From NCBI GenBank assembly GCA_016779205.1, contig JADHOC010000010.1:46108-110107 (forward strand): a DNA stretch of 64,000 nucleotides, in the 5' to 3' direction. Shown here piece by piece: positions 39,820 to 49,274 of the stretch. The notes beneath the pieces were generated by a model. The model saw only the letters and a list, made by a program, of their open reading frames with translations, did no database searches and had not been told where the DNA came from. Both the position numbers and the translations under genes were made by a program. This stretch comes from Planctomycetota bacterium (GTDB lineage Bacteria; Planctomycetota; UBA1135; GCA-002686595). Within the stretch, counting starts at the first letter, position 1. Every line of letters starts with the position of its first letter.

Positions 39820-41211
39820 TCAGCGATCTCCGTCCTTCGAATCTGCCTCGGCCGGGATCCGAGAGAGCAGGCGCTGCATGCGCTTCTGGCCCTGGGCGTC
39901 GAGTGTCCCCATGCCGATATCGCCGATCTCCGTGGCGACCTGCCAGAGCTCGAGCCGAAGCGCGCGCTCCATGAAGAGCCCGTAGGTCTTGGTCACGGGG
40001 TAATGGTCCTGGATGAGCTCGAAGAGCGCGCGTGCGTCACCCCCGCGGGCGTCCGCGAGGAGCGCCTCGTACACCCAGGAGGCCTGTTCGATGATCTCCA
40101 TCCGGGTGTCGGGGACGCTGAAGGGGAGCGGCTTGATGATCTCAGTGCCATTCGCCCCGTCCGCCGGCACGTCCCCGTCCCCAGGCACCTCGCCCACTGC
40201 AGGCGCCTCGCCCTCGACCTGGGGCGCACCCGAGGCGGCGTTCAGGCTGGCGATCCGGCTGGCGAAGATCGCGGTCGCCTCGAGGCCGCCGCCATTCAGG
40301 ATCTCGGAGTACTGTTGATAGCGACCGAGCACGGGGACGACGGAGCCAAAGAGCCAGCGCCGCGCCTCCTCCTGCCTGGACCCCAGGCCAGCGAGCTCGA
40401 TGAAGAGGTCGCGGGTCTCGAGGTCCTTGCGGCGCCACTTGTTGACCCGCACGAGGTCATAAGCGGTCTGCCGATCGCCGAGGCCCTGCAGGAGCTGCTG
40501 TGAGAGGATCCTCGACTCGGTCTCCAGGATCGCCACGGCCTCGGGGGCCTCCATCTTCGCCGCCGAGATGCGCTCGAGCAGGAACTCGAGGTAGCGGCTC
40601 CTGAAGCCAGGCCGGAAGTCGTCGGCGCGGCGCAGGCACCAGGTGTATCCGTTCACCGCGTCCTTGCGGCCCTGTGGTTCGAGCGCGCGGAAGCGCGTGT
40701 TGGCCCAGGCGAGCCACCGGAAGGGCTCCTCGGCGGCCTTGCCCTCCGGCTTCGTGCTCTGGGAGGACTCCGCCGTGGCGCCGTAGACCGTTGCCAGGAA
40801 CTCCGTGGCGCCGTCCTCGGGGGTGAGCTGGCCCACCCGGCCTCCGCGGACGAAGTCGATGATGTCCACGGTGGGGTAGCGCCTCATCGGGTTCCGGCGG
40901 GCGCCCTCCCGGTCCTCCTTGGTGTTGATGCGCACCGCGACCCCGTTCTCCTCGATCCAGTCCTTCACGCCGGAGTCACCGAAGATCGCCTCCCGGTAGC
41001 CCCGGACCGCGGGCGTCTCCGGACCGTCGACCCAGAGGATGATCAGGAACTTCTGCAGGCGCTCCGCGCGGGAGACGGCGGACTCGAAGTCGAGGTCAGC
41101 GAGCACGAGCGGTGACTCGTCCACCGGCTCCTGGACTGCGGGCGCGGGCGTCGCGAGGAGGCAGAGCTGGATGAGGCCGGTGAGGAGCGCGCGGGAGGGA
41201 TGCATGGGCAT
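39820..41211 (-). CDS. Secreted thioredoxin-fold protein without CxxC, with helical C-terminus
   Basis: 463 residues from the ATG at 41211 (a second ATG is two codons on). Signal peptide LLTGLIQLCLLATPAPA. Residues 35-130 follow a thioredoxin-like path: DFESAVSRAERLQKFLIILWVDGPETPAV, then GVAVRINTKEDREG and RRYPTVDIIDF with the cis-Pro-like TV/PT turn. The CxxC position reads GPET, so redox activity is not expected. The rest to 463 is mainly helical with a Glu/Pro/Gly-rich linker near 330-360. Function unknown. Confidence 0.6.
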   Translation of the reverse strand: MPMHPSRALLTGLIQLCLLATPAPAVQEPVDESPLVLADLDFESAVSRAERLQKFLIILWVDGPETPAVRGYREAIFGDSGVKDWIEENGVAVRINTKEDREGARRNPMRRYPTVDIIDFVRGGRVGQLTPEDGATEFLATVYGATAESSQSTKPEGKAAEEPFRWLAWANTRFRALEPQGRKDAVNGYTWCLRRADDFRPGFRSRYLEFLLERISAAKMEAPEAVAILETESRILSQQLLQGLGDRQTAYDLVRVNKWRRKDLETRDLFIELAGLGSRQEEARRWLFGSVVPVLGRYQQYSEILNGGGLEATAIFASRIASLNAASGAPQVEGEAPAVGEVPGDGDVPADGANGTEIIKPLPFSVPDTRMEIIEQASWVYEALLADARGGDARALFELIQDHYPVTKTYGLFMERALRLELWQVATEIGDIGMGTLDAQGQKRMQRLLSRIPAEADSKDGDR

Positions 41212-41355: not shown

Positions 41356-41874
41356 TCAGCCGGCGTTGCGCTCCGGCTGGAACTCGCGGAGCTTGTAGCG
41401 GTCGATCTTGCGGTAGAGCGTCGCCCGGCCAATCCCGAGCAGCTGCGCCGCCCGCTTGACGTTCCAGGTCGTGGTCTCGAGGGCGTGCTTGAGGATCTGC
41501 TGCTCGTAGTCCTCGAAGCGGTGGATCGAGCCCGGCTCGAGGAGCACGGTGCCGTCGTCGACGGCCGTGGGCTCCGAGGTCACCGGAGCGGAGGGCGCCG
41601 AGGCCACGGGGGCCGAGGGGGCCGAGTGGCTCACGGGGAGGAGGGGGTGGGCCGTGCACTGACGGACGACCTCGGAAGCGGTCTCGTCGGCAGACTGAAC
41701 GTCGAAGAGGACGAGGTCGGGCCGCTTGCCGTTCCCGGTAGCGCGCGCGTCGCCGGGGCTGGCGGCGAAGCGAATGAGCCAGCCAAAGCGGTGCGCCTCT
41801 TCGGAGACCCGGCTGCGGTCCGAGTCGTTGAGACCAAGGCACAGGACGGAACGCGGTTGATCAGAGGAGGTCAT
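41356..41874 (-). CDS. Fis-type HTH regulator with receiver-like N-terminal domain
   Basis: 172 residues from the ATG at 41874; a longer in-frame start exists upstream but adds low-complexity residues. The N-terminal 65 residues (SVLCLGLNDSDRSRVSEEAHRFGWLIRFA...PDLVLFDVQSAD) resemble a receiver fold, with Asp in LFDV, but the lysine half is missing. An Ala/Pro/Ser linker follows, and residues 125-165 are a Fis/NtrC-type helix-turn-helix: YEQQILKHALETTTWNVKRAAQLLGIGRATLYRKI. It lacks an AAA+ domain, so it cannot activate sigma-54 by itself. Confidence 0.75.
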   Translation of the reverse strand: MTSSDQPRSVLCLGLNDSDRSRVSEEAHRFGWLIRFAASPGDARATGNGKRPDLVLFDVQSADETASEVVRQCTAHPLLPVSHSAPSAPVASAPSAPVTSEPTAVDDGTVLLEPGSIHRFEDYEQQILKHALETTTWNVKRAAQLLGIGRATLYRKIDRYKLREFQPERNAG

Positions 41875-42514
41875 GGTCAGGAAAAGAAGTCGACGTGGTA
41901 TCGCGAGGCAAGTCGCGGGATTTGGAAGAAGGCGCGCGGCTGCGCCGCAGGCGTTGGGTGAGCGGGGGGCGAGGAGGACTCCCGCCACCGCTGTGGAAAA
42001 TGGATCGGCGGGCGCTTGCCTCGAAATGAAGCCGACTTCGAGGAACCACCAACCCTCGACGGGGGGGTGGTACTCCCACACCGCCCCGGCGGGGCCCATG
42101 GGAGCGGTCGAAGGGGTCGACCCGCGGCGGGGGGGGAGCCGCGGATCGCGGGGCCTTCCCGCTGTCCACATCCGAGACGCGGGGTAGCTCACCACCGTTC
42201 CCCTGGATCGGGCAAGAATCTCCTGATCTGCAATGGGAGGGGCCCTGGGGGCCCTGGGAAGGGCCTTGGGCGGCAGTTCCTCCTGTCAGCGTGCTCCTGA
42301 GCGCGCGGGAGTTGGGGGGGATTCGGGCCCCGCGACAGGTGGGGGCTGGCGACCGAGGAGGGTCCCGTGGCCGGGGATCGGGCCCGGGGCGTGGCGGCGT
42401 TGCGCCGCGGCGGCCGCCGCCCCCGCAAATGCGCTCACACTCCGGTCTGGGCGTGCCGTATGGTCCCGCGTGATGTGGACCGATGACCCATCCCGGGACC
42501 AACGCCCGGGGCAC
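41875..42514. other. Long G-rich intergenic region between divergent genes
   Basis: 640 bases with no convincing gene; the ORFs that cross it lack homology-like features. It holds several long G-runs (G7 at 42061-42067, G7 at 42314-42320) and a 7-bp hairpin (42122-42128 with 42138-42144) whose loop is G8A. Promoters for the HTH gene and the MORN operon must lie here. No sigma-70 or sigma-54 consensus could be picked with confidence. Confidence 0.5.
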
Positions 42515-43705
42515 ATGCCGCGCTCAGCGGCCCTCTGCTCGCTGCTCCTCTTCGTGGCGTGCTCGAACTCGGAGGAGCCGGGGACCCCAGGCGCGCCTCA
42601 GGCGGTGGGAGGCGGCGGCCAGGAGGTCGTGGACCCCTCCAGCGGAGCGGAGGCGCCCTCGCAGGACGACGTCGACGCCGCGCTCCCGGAGACCCTCGAG
42701 GACCTGGTGGAGGCCCTCGGCGCCATTCCTGCGGAACTCAAGGTGGTCACCGACCCCTCCCTGTTGGAGCCGACCGACCCTGCGGCCTGGCCCGCACCCT
42801 CGTCGGTGGGCGGGGACCCCGTTCGGATCCTGCGGGAGGTGCACCCCACCACGGGGACCCTCCTGAGGATCGCCGCGGCCCGTCCGGTCAAGGCGGAGGG
42901 AGAGGTACCGGTGCTCCACGGTCCGGAGTGGCGCTTCCACGAGTCCGGCGCGACCCGTTCCATCCAGTGGTGGAAGGACGACGTCCCCCACGGCCCCATG
43001 AAGCAGTGGCGTCCCGTGGGAATGCTCGCCCGGGAGGGCGTCTTCTCGGATGGCCAGCGTGATGGCCTCTGGCGGGTCTTCGCCAAGAACGGCCAGCTGA
43101 TCGAGCAGAAGATCTACCGCAACGGGCTCCCCGAGGGCGAGCACCGAGCGTGGTACCCCACGGGCAAGGAGAAGGAGCTGGAGACGTACAAGGGGGGCGT
43201 CCTCGACGGGCCGCGCAAGCAGTGGGGGCGTGGCGGCCTCCTCGTGCTGACGGAGGCCTATGAGGCGGGGTCCCTGAACGGGCGTTGGTCAGACTTCTTC
43301 CCCGGCACCAGCAACCCCCGGCAGTGGGGCGAGTATCGGAACGGGAAGCGCGAGGGGACCTGGCGGCGGGCCTCCGAGGCGGGCGTGACCCTCTCAACGG
43401 CCACCTACATCAACGGAGTCCTGGACGGTCTGATCCGACTCTGGAGTGAGGAGGGTGTCCTGATCGAAGAAACCACCTACTCGGAGGGGCAGAAGACCGG
43501 CCCGTCGCTGAGCTGGTACGCGGATGGGACCCCACAGTCCGAAGGCCGGCTGGAGAACGGTCGCCGGATTGGTCGATGGACCTACTGGAAGAGCGACGGC
43601 GCCCTGAACGAGCGCTGGTCCGGCGTGTTCGAAGACGACGAACGCGTCTCGCCGCTGGAGTCCGAAGGGGACGCCCCGCGCCCCCCCCAAGAAGGCCCTC
43701 GATGA
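42515..43705 (+). CDS. Lipoprotein with MORN/YwqK-type repeats
   Basis: 396 residues from the ATG at 42515, which gives a proper lipoprotein signal (MPRSAALCSLLLFVAC; lipobox FVAC). An in-frame ATG at 42473 adds 14 residues. Residues 20-75 are a Glu/Pro-rich linker. From about 165 the protein is a string of some nine repeats of about 23 residues with the pattern GxWxxWxxxGxLxxExxYxxGxxxG, as in YwqK-family 'toxin-antitoxin' annotated proteins and MORN repeats; the toxin-antitoxin label is not supported here. The stop overlaps the next ATG by four bases. Confidence 0.78.
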   Translation: MPRSAALCSLLLFVACSNSEEPGTPGAPQAVGGGGQEVVDPSSGAEAPSQDDVDAALPETLEDLVEALGAIPAELKVVTDPSLLEPTDPAAWPAPSSVGGDPVRILREVHPTTGTLLRIAAARPVKAEGEVPVLHGPEWRFHESGATRSIQWWKDDVPHGPMKQWRPVGMLAREGVFSDGQRDGLWRVFAKNGQLIEQKIYRNGLPEGEHRAWYPTGKEKELETYKGGVLDGPRKQWGRGGLLVLTEAYEAGSLNGRWSDFFPGTSNPRQWGEYRNGKREGTWRRASEAGVTLSTATYINGVLDGLIRLWSEEGVLIEETTYSEGQKTGPSLSWYADGTPQSEGRLENGRRIGRWTYWKSDGALNERWSGVFEDDERVSPLESEGDAPRPPQEGPR

Positions 43706-44652
43706 TGAACCTCGCACAGATCTGTCTGCCGCTCGCCCTCGCGGTCTTTCCCTTCCACCAGGGGCAGCAACAGGCGGAGGATCCGCCCACACCGCCGCCC
43801 TTCGAGGCCCCCCCTGACGTCGTCCCCGAGGTGGAGGGGGCGGTCTTCACGCGCTTCTACCACGACTCCGGAGCACTGGCACGTGAGGGCTACCTCAAGG
43901 ACGGCGTCCGCACGGGTGTGTGGAAGGCCTGGGACGAGTCCGGCGCGAGGCTGTACCACGGAGCGTTCCGGGACTACCGCCGCGTGGGCCCCTGGGTCGT
44001 CTACGGCAAGGGAGCGCGGGCCACGTCGAAGGGGTATTACGACGAGCAGGGCCTCCGGCACGGAGTCTGGGCCAACTACGGGAACCGCGGCGATGTCCGG
44101 CTGCTGGTGCGCTACGACCACGGCGTGCAGGATGGAGCGCTCGAGCGCTTCACCCGCGGCGGGCTGCTGGTGGAGCGGACCATCTACAAGCAGGGCCTGA
44201 AGGACGGCGCGAGCGTGCGGATGTCCACCGGCGCCAAGGAGCTCCTCGAGAAGGGGAGCTGGGCGTCGGGCAAGCGGGTGGGGCCGTGGGAGTTCTATCA
44301 CCCCGGGGGAGCCCTCCAGCGGAGCGGGAGCTTCGTCGACGGCCGCGAAGATGGGGAGTGGGTGCGCTACTTCCAGAACGGCAAGCGCGAGAGCATCGGG
44401 CGCTTCGAGGCCGGGCGCGCCGTGGGCACCTGGACGGGCTACTTCAAGCAAGGCGAGCGACGCTTCGTCGCCGAGTTCGTGAACGGTGTCCAGGAGGGCG
44501 CTTACACCGAGTGGTGGCGAAGTGGCCAGGTCAAGGCGAAGGGGGACTACAAGGCGGGGGTCTACGAAGGACCCTGGCAGTTCTGGTCCGCCGAGGGGCA
44601 GCTCGATGCCTCGCGCAGCGGCCGCTACAGCAAGGGAGCGCTGATCCAATGA
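43702..44652 (+). CDS. Secreted MORN/YwqK-repeat protein
   Basis: 316 residues. Two ATGs (43702, 43705) give MM; 43702 is taken because it forms an ATGA overlap with the upstream stop. Signal LAQICLPLALAVFP, then a Pro/Glu-rich linker, then about eleven repeats of roughly 22 residues (for example GVWKAWDESGARLYHGAF, GPWEFYHPGGALQRSGSF, GPWQFWSAEGQLDASRSG). Paralogous to the gene before it. Its stop overlaps the next gene's ATG in the same way. Confidence 0.78.
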   Translation: MMNLAQICLPLALAVFPFHQGQQQAEDPPTPPPFEAPPDVVPEVEGAVFTRFYHDSGALAREGYLKDGVRTGVWKAWDESGARLYHGAFRDYRRVGPWVVYGKGARATSKGYYDEQGLRHGVWANYGNRGDVRLLVRYDHGVQDGALERFTRGGLLVERTIYKQGLKDGASVRMSTGAKELLEKGSWASGKRVGPWEFYHPGGALQRSGSFVDGREDGEWVRYFQNGKRESIGRFEAGRAVGTWTGYFKQGERRFVAEFVNGVQEGAYTEWWRSGQVKAKGDYKAGVYEGPWQFWSAEGQLDASRSGRYSKGALIQ

Positions 44653-45749
44653 TTCTCCACGCCATCATCCTCTCGGGGACGCCGATGATCGCGCCCCAGG
44701 ACCCTGGCTCCCGCGAGCTCCGCTTCGTGCCGCCCTCGGGCGTTTCGCTCGCGATCGCGGGGACCGAGACCCACGACCTCCTCATGGAGTCGCTCCTGAC
44801 GCGCCGGGGCACAGAGGAGGCCGCCGCGGCTCCGATCGAGCTCCGCCTGCGCTCGAAGCTCGAGACGGTGATCGCCGACGGCTTCCTGGAAGAGGCCGGC
44901 CGGCTCCGGCGGCGCTACATGGACATCTCCGGGCGCCTCGAGCTCATCGACCCCAAGTCGTACGTCGAGGAGACCGGTGAGTGGAGCGGCCAGGTCATCG
45001 AGCTGAGCTCGCCCTTCCAGGGGGTCAGCGTGGCTTTCCAGCCGGTCCCCGACAAGCCCGGTCGCTTCGGGCGTCACTACGACGGCCGGGCCCTCAAGGA
45101 GAGCTTCCTCCCGACGCTCGAGGCGCCCTTCGACTGGGGCCGCTTCCTGGCGTTGGCCCCCGATCAAACCGCGAGGTCCGTCCAGCTTGGTGATCGCTGG
45201 TCACTTCCGGTCGAGGTCCTCCAGCCCTTGCTCGCGCCGAGCGGATTCCTGGCGTGGCGGGGCGAGGAGGCGGCGGACGAGCTGATCCTGCGTGCCTTCC
45301 AGAGCGGCGTGGCCGGCAACACCTACATCGGGTTCGACGGCAGCGTCGCTGGACAGGTCGAGGCCGAGGTGAAGGCTGTGGGGGGAGACTCCCCGGAGTC
45401 GAGCTTCGTGGAGCTCGAGCTGAGCTTCGACGTCACGCTGCGATCGGACCGCTCGGACTTCGTCAGCGAGAACCGCGTCGAGGTGGAGGCCGTCGAGCAG
45501 GTGCAGACCCTCGGGGCCCAGCTCGCGGTGAACCTCAAGGGGGGAGCCCGGCTGCGCTGGAGCGTGGCGGACAACCGTCCCCTTGGCGCGACCGTCCTGT
45601 GCGACGAGATCGTCGAGCTCGCCGTTCAGATCCTGCCGCCGGAGAGCGAGGTGGTCGAGCAGTCGATCCGCATGGTCGGCGGGCTGGCGAATCGCCTCGA
45701 GTTCCGCCAGGTCGAGGTGGTGGCGCCCACCCGGAGCGAGGGGCGCTGA
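44649..45749 (+). CDS. Unknown protein, third gene of the MORN operon
   Basis: 366 residues from an ATG that overlaps the previous stop (ATGA). The N-terminus ILHAIILSGTPMIAPQ is a weak signal-like stretch. The body is beta-rich with a helical stretch near 60-100 (LETVIADGFLEEAGRLRRRYMD). GQVIELSSPFQGVSVAFQPVPDKPGRFGRHYDG and SFVELELSFDVTLRSDRSDFVSENRVEVEAVEQV suggest large beta-sandwich units. No known domain or catalytic motif was recognised. Zero bases separate its stop from the convergent matrixin gene. Confidence 0.55.
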   Translation: MILHAIILSGTPMIAPQDPGSRELRFVPPSGVSLAIAGTETHDLLMESLLTRRGTEEAAAAPIELRLRSKLETVIADGFLEEAGRLRRRYMDISGRLELIDPKSYVEETGEWSGQVIELSSPFQGVSVAFQPVPDKPGRFGRHYDGRALKESFLPTLEAPFDWGRFLALAPDQTARSVQLGDRWSLPVEVLQPLLAPSGFLAWRGEEAADELILRAFQSGVAGNTYIGFDGSVAGQVEAEVKAVGGDSPESSFVELELSFDVTLRSDRSDFVSENRVEVEAVEQVQTLGAQLAVNLKGGARLRWSVADNRPLGATVLCDEIVELAVQILPPESEVVEQSIRMVGGLANRLEFRQVEVVAPTRSEGR

Positions 45750-47114
45750 TCAGGGGACGAGCTCGACCTCGAGCGCGTCGCTGAATGCGCCGCCCGCTGC
45801 CGAAGCGTCCTGGACCCAGACCTGATAGAAGACCCGGCTTCCGATCACGGCTCCGGGCGGCAGCGAGACCTGTGCACTCCCTGCGCCGAGGAAGAGCGAG
45901 ATCGTCGCCACGCGACGGACCGAGCCGCCCAGGAGGAGGGTCCCGAAGCCGGTGAGGTTCAGGCCCGGCTGGGTCCCCTCGACGACCATGGCGGTGCCGA
46001 CGAACTGGGGCGGCGCGGCGCCCGTCACGCCGATGGTGAACTGCCCCGCGGTGACGCTCGGCAGGCCGCTGTAGGCGATCCGGATCGGTCCCCCCTGGCT
46101 GGAGACCCCGGGGGCCCCGTAGGTGGTGGGCGGGCTCCAAGGAGTGCGCTGGGGGTCGAAGGGGTAGACGTTCGAGAGCGCCGCTGGGCCTGGGGTTGGC
46201 AGGAGGACGGCGACGTCGCCCGGCCCCGCGCTCGCCGGCACCTGGACCTCGACCCGAGTGCCCGCTGACCCGGCCACGGCGGGTACGGCGGTGACCTTGA
46301 TCGGCGTCCCGTCGCCAGGGTTGCTGGGATCAGCGGGCGTGAACCAGACCTCGTTGTCCGTCGGGTGGAAGCCGCTCCCCACCAGGCGCAGGGCGCCGGT
46401 CGCGGTGAACTCGTAGGTCTCGATCACGGGCTTGGCCGGGTCGAGGGCGCCGTAGAGGAACTCGAGTCCCGCGCGGTCATCCGGCTCGATGGACCGCAGG
46501 TCGAGTCCCGCGTTTGCGGTTACGGTCCCCATCGTCGCGCCGGGGATCGTCGAGTGGTCGAGCCCGAGCGCGTGGCCGAACTCGTGGGTCATCACGCCCT
46601 GGAGATCCACCGGGTTGCTCCCCGCGAGGAGGCCGCCTGGGTCGTCGCACCAGGTGACAGACCCCTCGAAGAAGCGGATCCGCCACCCGTCGCCGATGGG
46701 GATGTCGGTCTGGGCGATGGCGGCGCCCGCCGAGGGGACCGCCGAGATGATGTTGGCGTCGCGGTTCCCCGGTCCCAGCGCTCGGCCGGTGAAGAAGGCG
46801 TCGAAGTTCGAGCCGCCGGAACCCAGCACGGTTTGAAGCGGGTCCGTCGTTCCCGAGCCGTGGGCCCGTGAGCCCCACTCGGCGACCCCCTTGCGGATCG
46901 CGAGCTCGGCGCCCAGGGCGCCGGGGAAGTCCGGGTCGGGCACCTGGTTCGTGTTGGCTCGGGGGCCGGTGAAGTTGTTGAGGACCCGGAAGTCTCGCTG
47001 GGTCAGGTCGAGGACATCGCCGTACACCGCGAAGGCCCAGGAGTCGGGCGAAGCGAGGAGCCCGGCGACCCCGGAGAGGAGCAGCGCAGGGGCGATGTTT
47101 CGACGGAGGCTCAT
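45750..47114 (-). CDS. Matrixin-like secreted zinc metalloprotease (M10)
   Basis: 454 residues from the ATG at 47114; the frame continues upstream to 49178 only as an antisense opening under htpG. Signal IAPALLLSGVAGLLASPDSWA. Zinc site HEFGHALGLDH at 177-187 (His177, His181, His187, Glu178) and a Met-turn at Met195 (GATMGT) define a metzincin. Residues 205-240 close the catalytic domain (DLRSIEPDDRAGLEFLYG, typical of matrixins). The C-terminal 220 residues form one or two beta domains, including an IPT/TIG-like GSGFHPTDNEVWF stretch, that may bind substrates or surfaces. Confidence 0.88.
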   Translation of the reverse strand: MSLRRNIAPALLLSGVAGLLASPDSWAFAVYGDVLDLTQRDFRVLNNFTGPRANTNQVPDPDFPGALGAELAIRKGVAEWGSRAHGSGTTDPLQTVLGSGGSNFDAFFTGRALGPGNRDANIISAVPSAGAAIAQTDIPIGDGWRIRFFEGSVTWCDDPGGLLAGSNPVDLQGVMTHEFGHALGLDHSTIPGATMGTVTANAGLDLRSIEPDDRAGLEFLYGALDPAKPVIETYEFTATGALRLVGSGFHPTDNEVWFTPADPSNPGDGTPIKVTAVPAVAGSAGTRVEVQVPASAGPGDVAVLLPTPGPAALSNVYPFDPQRTPWSPPTTYGAPGVSSQGGPIRIAYSGLPSVTAGQFTIGVTGAAPPQFVGTAMVVEGTQPGLNLTGFGTLLLGGSVRRVATISLFLGAGSAQVSLPPGAVIGSRVFYQVWVQDASAAGGAFSDALEVELVP

Positions 47115-47327
47115 CTTCGATCTTCGGGAGGCTCGGGGGCGTCCCCTGTCCAAATCTAAGGGGCCCAGGCGAGCCCGGTGGACGGGCAGGCGCAACTGCC
47201 GAAGCAGTTGCCCCGAATCGAGCGCATGAAGGTTGCCAGCGGCGCGTTGAGGCGGAAAATCGTGGCCTCCAAACGCCGCAGGTGAGACCCGCGGTCCACG
47301 GGGATTGGTTCCCCAGGAGCCCCACAA

Positions 47328-49274
47328 ATGACTGCCCAGACAGAAAAGCACAGCTTCGAGGCCGAGGTCCAGCAGGTCCTCTCCCTCGTCATCCACTCGC
47401 TCTACACGAACCGTGAGATCTTCCTCCGGGAGCTCATCTCGAACGCCAGCGACGCGCTCGACAAGCTCCGCTTCGAGTCCCTCACGGACGGCTCGCTGAT
47501 CGAGGAGGGGGAGACCCTCGGGGTGGCCCTCGAGACGGACGTGTCGAACAACGTCCTGCGCGTCGCCGACAACGGCATCGGGATGGACCGCGAGGAGCTG
47601 ACCCGGAACCTGGGCACCATCGCGAGCTCGGGGACCCGGCGGTTCCTGGAGGCCAGCGCGGCGGACGGCAGCGGCGAGGAGCGTCCGGACCTGATCGGGC
47701 AATTCGGCGTCGGCTTCTACAGCGCCTTCATGGTCGCCGAGGAGGTGGTGGTCGAGACCCGCCGCGCGGGCAGCGACGAGGGCTGGCGCTGGAGCTCCAA
47801 GGGCGACGGCTCCTACGAGATCGAGCCGGTGGAGGGCCTCGCCCGCGGGACCGTGGTGTCGCTCCACCTGCGCGAGGCGGCCGAGGGCGAGGAGGGCGAG
47901 GGGCCCCGCAAGTTCCTCGAGGAGTTCACCCTCCGCGACGTGGTTCGCCGTTACAGCGACTTCGTCGAGTACCCGATCCAGATGGAGATCGAGCGGACGG
48001 AGCCGAAGCTCGACGACGAGGGCAAGCCCGTCGAGGGCGAGACGGTCACAGAGACCAAGCTCGAGACCCTGAACTCCCAGAAGCCCCTCTGGTCGCGGCC
48101 GAAGTCCGAGATCACGGACGAGGAGCACGCCGAGTTCTACCGGCACCTCACCCACGACTGGAACGAGCCCTACGGCAACCTGCACTTCAGCGCCGAGGGT
48201 GCCCTCGAGTACACCGCGCTTCTGTACCTGCCGAAGCAGCCCCCGTTCGATCAGTTCGACCCCTCGAACCGCGAGTCCAACGTCAGCCTGTACGTGCGCC
48301 GGGTCCTGATCCAGCGTGAGTGCAGCGAGCTCCTGCCCTCCTGGCTGCGCTTCGTGCGCGGCGTGGTGGAGTGCTCGGACCTCCCCCTCAACGTCTCCCG
48401 CGAGACCCTGCAGGACGACCCCCGCCTCGGGCAGATCCGCAAGCGCCTCGTGAAGAAGGTGCTCGACGAGCTGAGCTCGCTCATGGGCAAGGACCGCGAG
48501 GCCTACGCCTCCTTCTGGGAGGGCTTTGGCCAGGTCATCAAGGAGGGCATCTGGGCTGGGGACGACACGGACGGTCGCATCGCCGGGGTGTGCCTCTTCT
48601 CGTCCTCCAACGGCGAGGCGCCGACCACGCTCGAGGAGTACGTGGGGCGCATGGCCGACGGCCAGGAGACCATCCACGTGCTCACCGGGGCGGACCGCAT
48701 GACGGTGGAGGCCTCTCCGCTGCTGGAGGCCGTCCTGGAGCGTGGGGAGGAGGTCATCTACCTCATCGATCCGGTGGACGAGTGGATGCTCCAGCGCCTG
48801 ACGGAGTTCGACGGCAAGAAGGTCGTCCCGCTGGATCGAGCGGACTCGACCGAGGACGACGACGCCCGGGAGAAGCGTGAGGAGCTCGAGAAGGAGCACG
48901 AGGGTCTGCTCGGCGCCATCAAGGGGCCCCTCGAGGAGGAGATCTCGGAGGTCCGCTTCACGTCCCGCCTCAAGGACAGCCCCGCCGTCCTGGTCGCCGC
49001 CGAGGGCGGCATCTCCGGCCACATGGAGCGCCTGCTCAAGCGGTCCGGCCAGGAGGTCCCCCCCCAGAAGCGAGTGCTCGAGTTGAACCCGGACCACGAC
49101 CTCGTGAAGAGCCTCACGAAGCTCTACGGGGTGGATCAGAACTCCCCGCGGATCGCGGAGGCGGCCGAGGTGCTCCACGGCCAGGCGCTGCTCGCCGAGG
49201 GCGGGTCCCCGAAGGACCCCAAGCGCTTCGGGCAGCTGGTCACCGACCTGCTCCTGAATTCGGTGAAGGGCTGA
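47328..49274 (+). CDS. htpG: Molecular chaperone HtpG (Hsp90)
   Basis: 648 residues (E. coli 624). N-terminal ATPase with LRELISNASDALDKLRF (catalytic Glu, Asn), DNGIGM, GTIASSGT and GQFGVGFYSAFMVA. Middle domain with LPLNVSRETLQDD and the catalytic Arg context; C-terminal dimerisation domain from about 510. The region 560-580 has an Asp/Glu-rich insert (DSTEDDDAREKREELE). A cytoplasmic ATP-dependent chaperone, usually stress-induced; a CIRCE-like or sigma-32-like site was not recognised in the 213 bases upstream. Confidence 0.97.
   Translation: MTAQTEKHSFEAEVQQVLSLVIHSLYTNREIFLRELISNASDALDKLRFESLTDGSLIEEGETLGVALETDVSNNVLRVADNGIGMDREELTRNLGTIASSGTRRFLEASAADGSGEERPDLIGQFGVGFYSAFMVAEEVVVETRRAGSDEGWRWSSKGDGSYEIEPVEGLARGTVVSLHLREAAEGEEGEGPRKFLEEFTLRDVVRRYSDFVEYPIQMEIERTEPKLDDEGKPVEGETVTETKLETLNSQKPLWSRPKSEITDEEHAEFYRHLTHDWNEPYGNLHFSAEGALEYTALLYLPKQPPFDQFDPSNRESNVSLYVRRVLIQRECSELLPSWLRFVRGVVECSDLPLNVSRETLQDDPRLGQIRKRLVKKVLDELSSLMGKDREAYASFWEGFGQVIKEGIWAGDDTDGRIAGVCLFSSSNGEAPTTLEEYVGRMADGQETIHVLTGADRMTVEASPLLEAVLERGEEVIYLIDPVDEWMLQRLTEFDGKKVVPLDRADSTEDDDAREKREELEKEHEGLLGAIKGPLEEEISEVRFTSRLKDSPAVLVAAEGGISGHMERLLKRSGQEVPPQKRVLELNPDHDLVKSLTKLYGVDQNSPRIAEAAEVLHGQALLAEGGSPKDPKRFGQLVTDLLLNSVKG

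Follow-up and report, generated by a model that had tools for sequence, protein, structure and literature searches.

Organization of the locus

The window, a 64,000-nucleotide stretch of a Planctomycetota genome, carries three co-directional genes, encoding two MORN_2-repeat proteins (P1 and P2) and a mostly-beta protein (P3), together with a divergent HTH gene, a convergent metallopeptidase gene and htpG. The features considered here are as follows.

41356..42072, minus strand: divergent gene for a Fis-type HTH protein (HTH_8, Pfam PF02954, 3e-15), start uncertain
42473..43705, plus strand: P1, predicted lipoprotein with a MORN_2 rod, 410 aa (open reading frame, with the start revised by homologues; MORN_2 score; AlphaFold model)
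42557..42682, plus strand: predicted disordered linker of P1, residues 29-70, directly behind the lipobox (pLDDT < 50)
42560..42562, plus strand: lipobox cysteine of P1, residue 30 (FVAC/S; sequence; Cys conserved in the aligned homologues)
43702..43705, plus strand: ATGA overlap of P1 and P2 (sequence)
43702..44652, plus strand: P2, predicted MORN_2 rod with an export signal and without a lipobox, 316 aa (open reading frame; MORN_2 score; Sec-like signal)
44649..44652, plus strand: ATGA overlap of P2 and P3 (sequence; 29 of 47 relatives allow an in-frame start at -4)
44649..45749, plus strand: P3, of clade P3A, mostly-beta protein with an export-signal-like N-terminus, 366 aa (open reading frame; model)
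45750..47114, minus strand: convergent gene for an M10-type (matrixin) metallopeptidase, 454 aa (Pfam PF00413, 8e-10; motif HEFGHALGLDH)
47328..49274, plus strand: htpG (Hsp90), conserved neighbour outside the operon (synteny in relatives)

An earlier note on this DNA had described three open reading frames chained by ATGA overlaps, and the arrangement is real: both overlaps are 4 bp long, all three genes lie on the plus strand, and the P1 stop codon TGA (43703-43705) overlaps the P2 ATG (43702-43704), just as the P2 stop codon (44650-44652) overlaps the P3 ATG (44649-44651). P1 probably starts at the ATG at 42473, 14 codons upstream of the position given in the earlier note (42515), because close relatives, compared through the homologues at loci L096, L098 and L100, share an N-terminal extension (MW..D..RD...). 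For P2, there are two possible start codons, the ATG at 43702, within the ATGA overlap, and that at 43705.

On the upstream side, the HTH_8 gene (41356..42072) encodes a possible regulator. Further away, positions 39820-41211 of the window hold another divergent gene. The protein it encodes has 463 aa, a signal-like N-terminus and no Pfam match, and several other genera have relatives of this gene on the upstream side of the cluster.

Two MORN_2 proteins with export signals

P1 and P2 score 48.3 and 56.5 bits, respectively, against the MORN_2 model (PF07661), above the Pfam gathering cut-off of 29.6 bits, and their rods are homologous over the full length (hhalign 100%). The AlphaFold model of P1 (mean pLDDT 85, above 90 and mostly above 95 in the rod) consists of a signal helix, the disordered stretch of residues 29-70 and a long beta-hairpin rod, with MORN1 and junctophilin, and also OspA, as the best PDB matches in Foldseek. 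By this model and its matches to MORN1 and junctophilin, P1 is predicted to form a rod of MORN_2 beta-hairpin repeats. A rod shape is likewise predicted for P2, from its profile alignment with P1 and from profile matches to the MORN regions of SET7/9 and FAP266. The likeness to OspA of Borrelia, a single-layer beta-sheet surface lipoprotein, lies in the lipid-anchored extended beta-sheet (Foldseek probability of 1.00 to engineered OspA), but the TM-score is low (about 0.3) and a sequence relation to P1 is not expected.

Export signals were assessed with a simple hydrophobicity and lipobox scan, which revealed a lipobox in 21 of the 29 P1-type proteins with a detectable signal and in none of the 45 P2-type or 43 P3A proteins, a conserved division of signals. 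The lipobox cysteine is nearly invariant in the alignment of P1 homologues and, combined with the signal peptide, marks P1 as a predicted lipoprotein. P2 has a Sec-like signal, and P3, the N-terminus of which is export-signal-like, weakly in the window species and clearly in many relatives, is probably exported too. Neither P2 nor P3 of the window species has a clear positive n-region in its signal, so that the case for their export rests partly on the relatives. The earlier note's observation that both repeat proteins carry export signals is borne out by the scan, with a lipobox in P1 and none in P2. Such signals would place the proteins outside the cytoplasm, in the periplasm, at the outer membrane or beyond. 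They are compatible with the periplasm or the cell surface alike and do not establish the position at the cell exterior that the earlier note gave to the repeats.

The same note had presented exported repeats as a departure from YwqK annotations, which is not new, since exported MORN_2 proteins are known from Fusobacterium. There, most MORN2 proteins have signal sequences, and roles in adhesion/invasion have been proposed, the exact function being unknown (PMC12940168). The proteins described here resemble those of Fusobacterium in their tandem repeats of about 22-24 residues and predicted beta-hairpin rod. Unlike them, however, the rods form a conserved unit with the P3A gene, and one operon often combines a lipoprotein rod with a non-lipoprotein one. 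P1 (1.3e-22) and P2 (1e-19) also match the repeat region of the LIC20035 family adhesin (NF033566), but with partial coverage of the model and at 80.2 and 70.7 bits, far below the curated cut-off of 250, which leaves both outside that family.

Conservation of the cluster across relatives

The gene order P1-P2-P3 is kept in all nine genomes of the genus, including one (G004) in which the cluster spans two contigs, one carrying P1 and most of P2, the other the rest of P2 followed by P3. Among the 48 P3A loci examined, profile searches identified a P2-type MORN gene directly upstream of P3A at all 47 with an assessable upstream side; the 48th (L099) begins at a contig end, and the P2 C-terminus is present there. 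Most of the later P3A loci had been selected through their P2 match, and we therefore also took the P3A matches as the starting point. Of the family-wide P3A matches, the top 40 come from 40 genomes, and a comparison of coordinates by hand placed every one of them next to a P2-type gene; once weaker P3A matches are added, the pair is present in 52 of 81 genomes (hand count). P3A without P2 was never seen among the loci and matches examined. The reverse linkage is weaker: genomes have several other MORN_2-like places each, and in G013, G014, G094 and G120 (L157, L215, L218 and L219) a MORN gene lies near htpG, but P3A was not detected next to it. Collectively, the constant adjacency of P2 and P3 within one bacterial family suggests that the two proteins may work jointly outside the cytoplasm.

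P1 was not found at 8 loci where the upstream sequence is longer than 3 kb (L191, L193, L195-L197, L206, L211 and L212), and extra MORN genes are present at L108, L111, L189, L198, L199, L205 and L207. The synteny of the trio, which the earlier note had proposed as a check, therefore holds for the gene order throughout the genus and in much of the family, but not for P1 in several genera, where it is absent or multiplied. In one genus, a JAB-domain (Prok-JAB) gene is inserted among the MORN genes of the cluster (L111:1836-2297).

From what it took to be a strict ATGA chain, the earlier note had deduced a fixed stoichiometry, and neither is supported by the comparison. At the P2/P3 junction, 29 of the 47 loci could use an in-frame start at -4 (an ATG in 12 of these and in the window), and gaps elsewhere reach 71 bp. 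The background, based on crude gene calls, is that 102 tight co-directional pairs of this genome and its relatives include 15 with ATG at -4; with its steps taken as independent, a two-step ATGA chain is expected at about 2%, which is mildly unusual. Given this background, the overlaps were rejected as evidence of stoichiometry, and with P1 missing or multiplied as described above and the overlaps themselves variable, no fixed ratio is implied.

The conserved region extends beyond the three genes. The M10 peptidase gene adjoins P3A in 35 of the 48 loci, and in 39 of the 48 htpG follows P3A within 2 kb (37 of the 41 whose downstream sequence extends to about 1.9 kb or further). Both genes stay beside the MORN-P3A cluster across the family (window positions 45750-49274; loci L096-L221), for no obvious functional reason. 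The conservation of this wider block, the members of which are unrelated in predicted function and include a peptidase on the opposite strand, is what would be expected if the P1-P2-P3 genes were linked by inheritance alone, as part of a stable chromosomal region near htpG and without a joint function. We consider this unlikely, because conservation mostly ends past htpG outside the genus (where the downstream sequence reaches 5 kb or more, d1 is present in 1 of 7 loci and htpG in 5 of the same 7), yet P2 and P3A were never seen separated, and their open reading frames usually overlap or nearly touch.

P3 and its family

P3 has zero matches in Pfam (searched to E 1) or NCBIfam. Its AlphaFold model (pLDDT 91.6, pTM 0.87) is mostly beta, with long antiparallel strands and helices in the middle, and nothing in the PDB comes close to it. 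A PDB sequence search with the P3 profile produced just weak, unrelated matches, and the matches of the model in a viral structure library, with TM-scores of about 0.1, are meaningless. A LolA-type lipoprotein-carrier fold, which the secondary structure had suggested, is absent from the 50 best PDB matches and was rejected.

The long antiparallel strands would fit a reading in which P3A is an envelope carrier or binding protein for a lipid or another hydrophobic ligand, with the MORN rods as docking or receptor proteins as opposed to a structural scaffold. Consistent with this, the highest Foldseek probabilities among the PDB matches shown belong to two lipid-binding proteins, lipovitellin (1.00) and microsomal triglyceride transfer protein (0.93). 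However, the corresponding TM-scores are low (0.31 and 0.25) and establish neither homology nor a shared function, most of the other structure matches are generic barrels with TM-scores below 0.25, and no ligand site was identified in the model, which makes a lipid carrier an improbable alternative.

P3 belongs to a multi-copy family, with about 2-10 copies per genome (A1 profile), which is present in all 80 genomes of the taxonomic family searched. Beyond the taxonomic family, matches are far weaker and occur in a minority of the other genomes of the class and phylum; the protein family thus appears to be largely confined to the taxonomic family of the host. The relatives of P3 fall into two groups, one adjacent to MORN genes (P3A) and one without MORN neighbours (P3B), and in the tree the MORN-linked P3s make up one side of a branch with 99/95 support; L118 is long-branched, being nearest to the B side yet outside B. 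The existence of P3B paralogues without MORN neighbours indicates that the P3 fold needs no MORN partner. The window's own genome also encodes two tandem divergent P3-like genes (L150:3364-5621; G000 contig 23). P3B genes have a recurrent association of their own, the second for P3: those at L114, L117, L124, L125 and L131 adjoin genes for proteins of ~820-860 aa, and the neighbours scanned at L114 and L131 gave TPR-like and DUF1570/peptidase-MA-like matches.

A probable remote relative is DUF6263 (PF19777), with which P3 shares signal peptides and the motif LP..V.vGd.W. The DUF6263 model is weakly matched by 2 of the 37 members of the P3 alignment (best E 0.0023); P3 itself falls short of the Pfam cut-off of 26.7, with no match at E 1, and a DUF6263 match is absent from the window's own genome at 1e-6. 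When the P3 profile was compared with a profile built from ten DUF6263 proteins of the phylum, hhalign gave 97.1% (E 7.4e-11 over 225 columns, one pair), versus 9.4% for a MORN control. This comparison supports a remote relation of P3 to DUF6263 as opposed to membership. The third protein, which the earlier note had called unlike any family, is indeed without a strong family match, but it is no orphan, given its paralogues in every family genome examined and its remote similarity to DUF6263.

MORN_2 proteins are frequently annotated as YwqK antitoxins (PMC12940168), with which, going by annotation, P1 and P2 have the MORN_2 repeats in common, and a strictly linked two-gene unit is typical of toxin-antitoxin pairs. 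A YwqJ/YwqK-type toxin-antitoxin or immunity pair, in which P3 would be the toxin and the MORN proteins the antitoxin, is nevertheless very improbable. Both partners carry export signals, which argue against a cytoplasmic antitoxin; P3 has no toxin-family match in Pfam, NCBIfam or family-alignment profile searches; and each genome has several P3 paralogues that lack a MORN partner. On these grounds, P3 was rejected as a toxin. Furthermore, no recognised toxin is adjacent, the other neighbours being the M10 peptidase, htpG and HTH_8 genes, and inheritance looks vertical, with a conserved chromosomal context.

A possible exported MORN_2 assembly

MORN repeats are protein-protein interaction modules, and MORN1 rods dimerise through their C-termini (PMC7725318). 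The reading that we favour, with a confidence just short of even, is that P2 and P3A constitute a module outside the cytoplasm, often accompanied by a lipid-anchored MORN rod, with a role as a scaffold or in adhesion. P2 and P3A would bind each other outside the cytoplasm, with P3A acting as a dedicated partner, cap or carrier of the P2 rod, and P1, where present, would tether the assembly to the membrane through rod-rod contact. The assembly may serve as a periplasmic or surface scaffold or as an adhesin, and translational coupling would aid co-production without fixing the ratio of the proteins. Since several genera have the pair without an adjacent P1, an anchored three-part complex would not be general.

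A bolder version of this proposal, which we put forward only tentatively, is that P2-P3A represents a new exported two-component assembly, in which P3A evolved within the multi-copy DUF6263-like family into a dedicated partner of a MORN_2 rod, yielding an envelope structure specific to the taxonomic family, with lipid-anchored MORN rods as optional additions. The exported location of MORN_2 proteins was already known, and the new element would be the invariant pairing of P2 with P3A, as read from the genomes. As exported proteins, MORN_2 proteins are common and functionally uncharacterised; a strictly linked partner gene would provide a testable handle on their binding, and P3A and P3B offer a natural contrast of MORN-linked and MORN-free members within one family.
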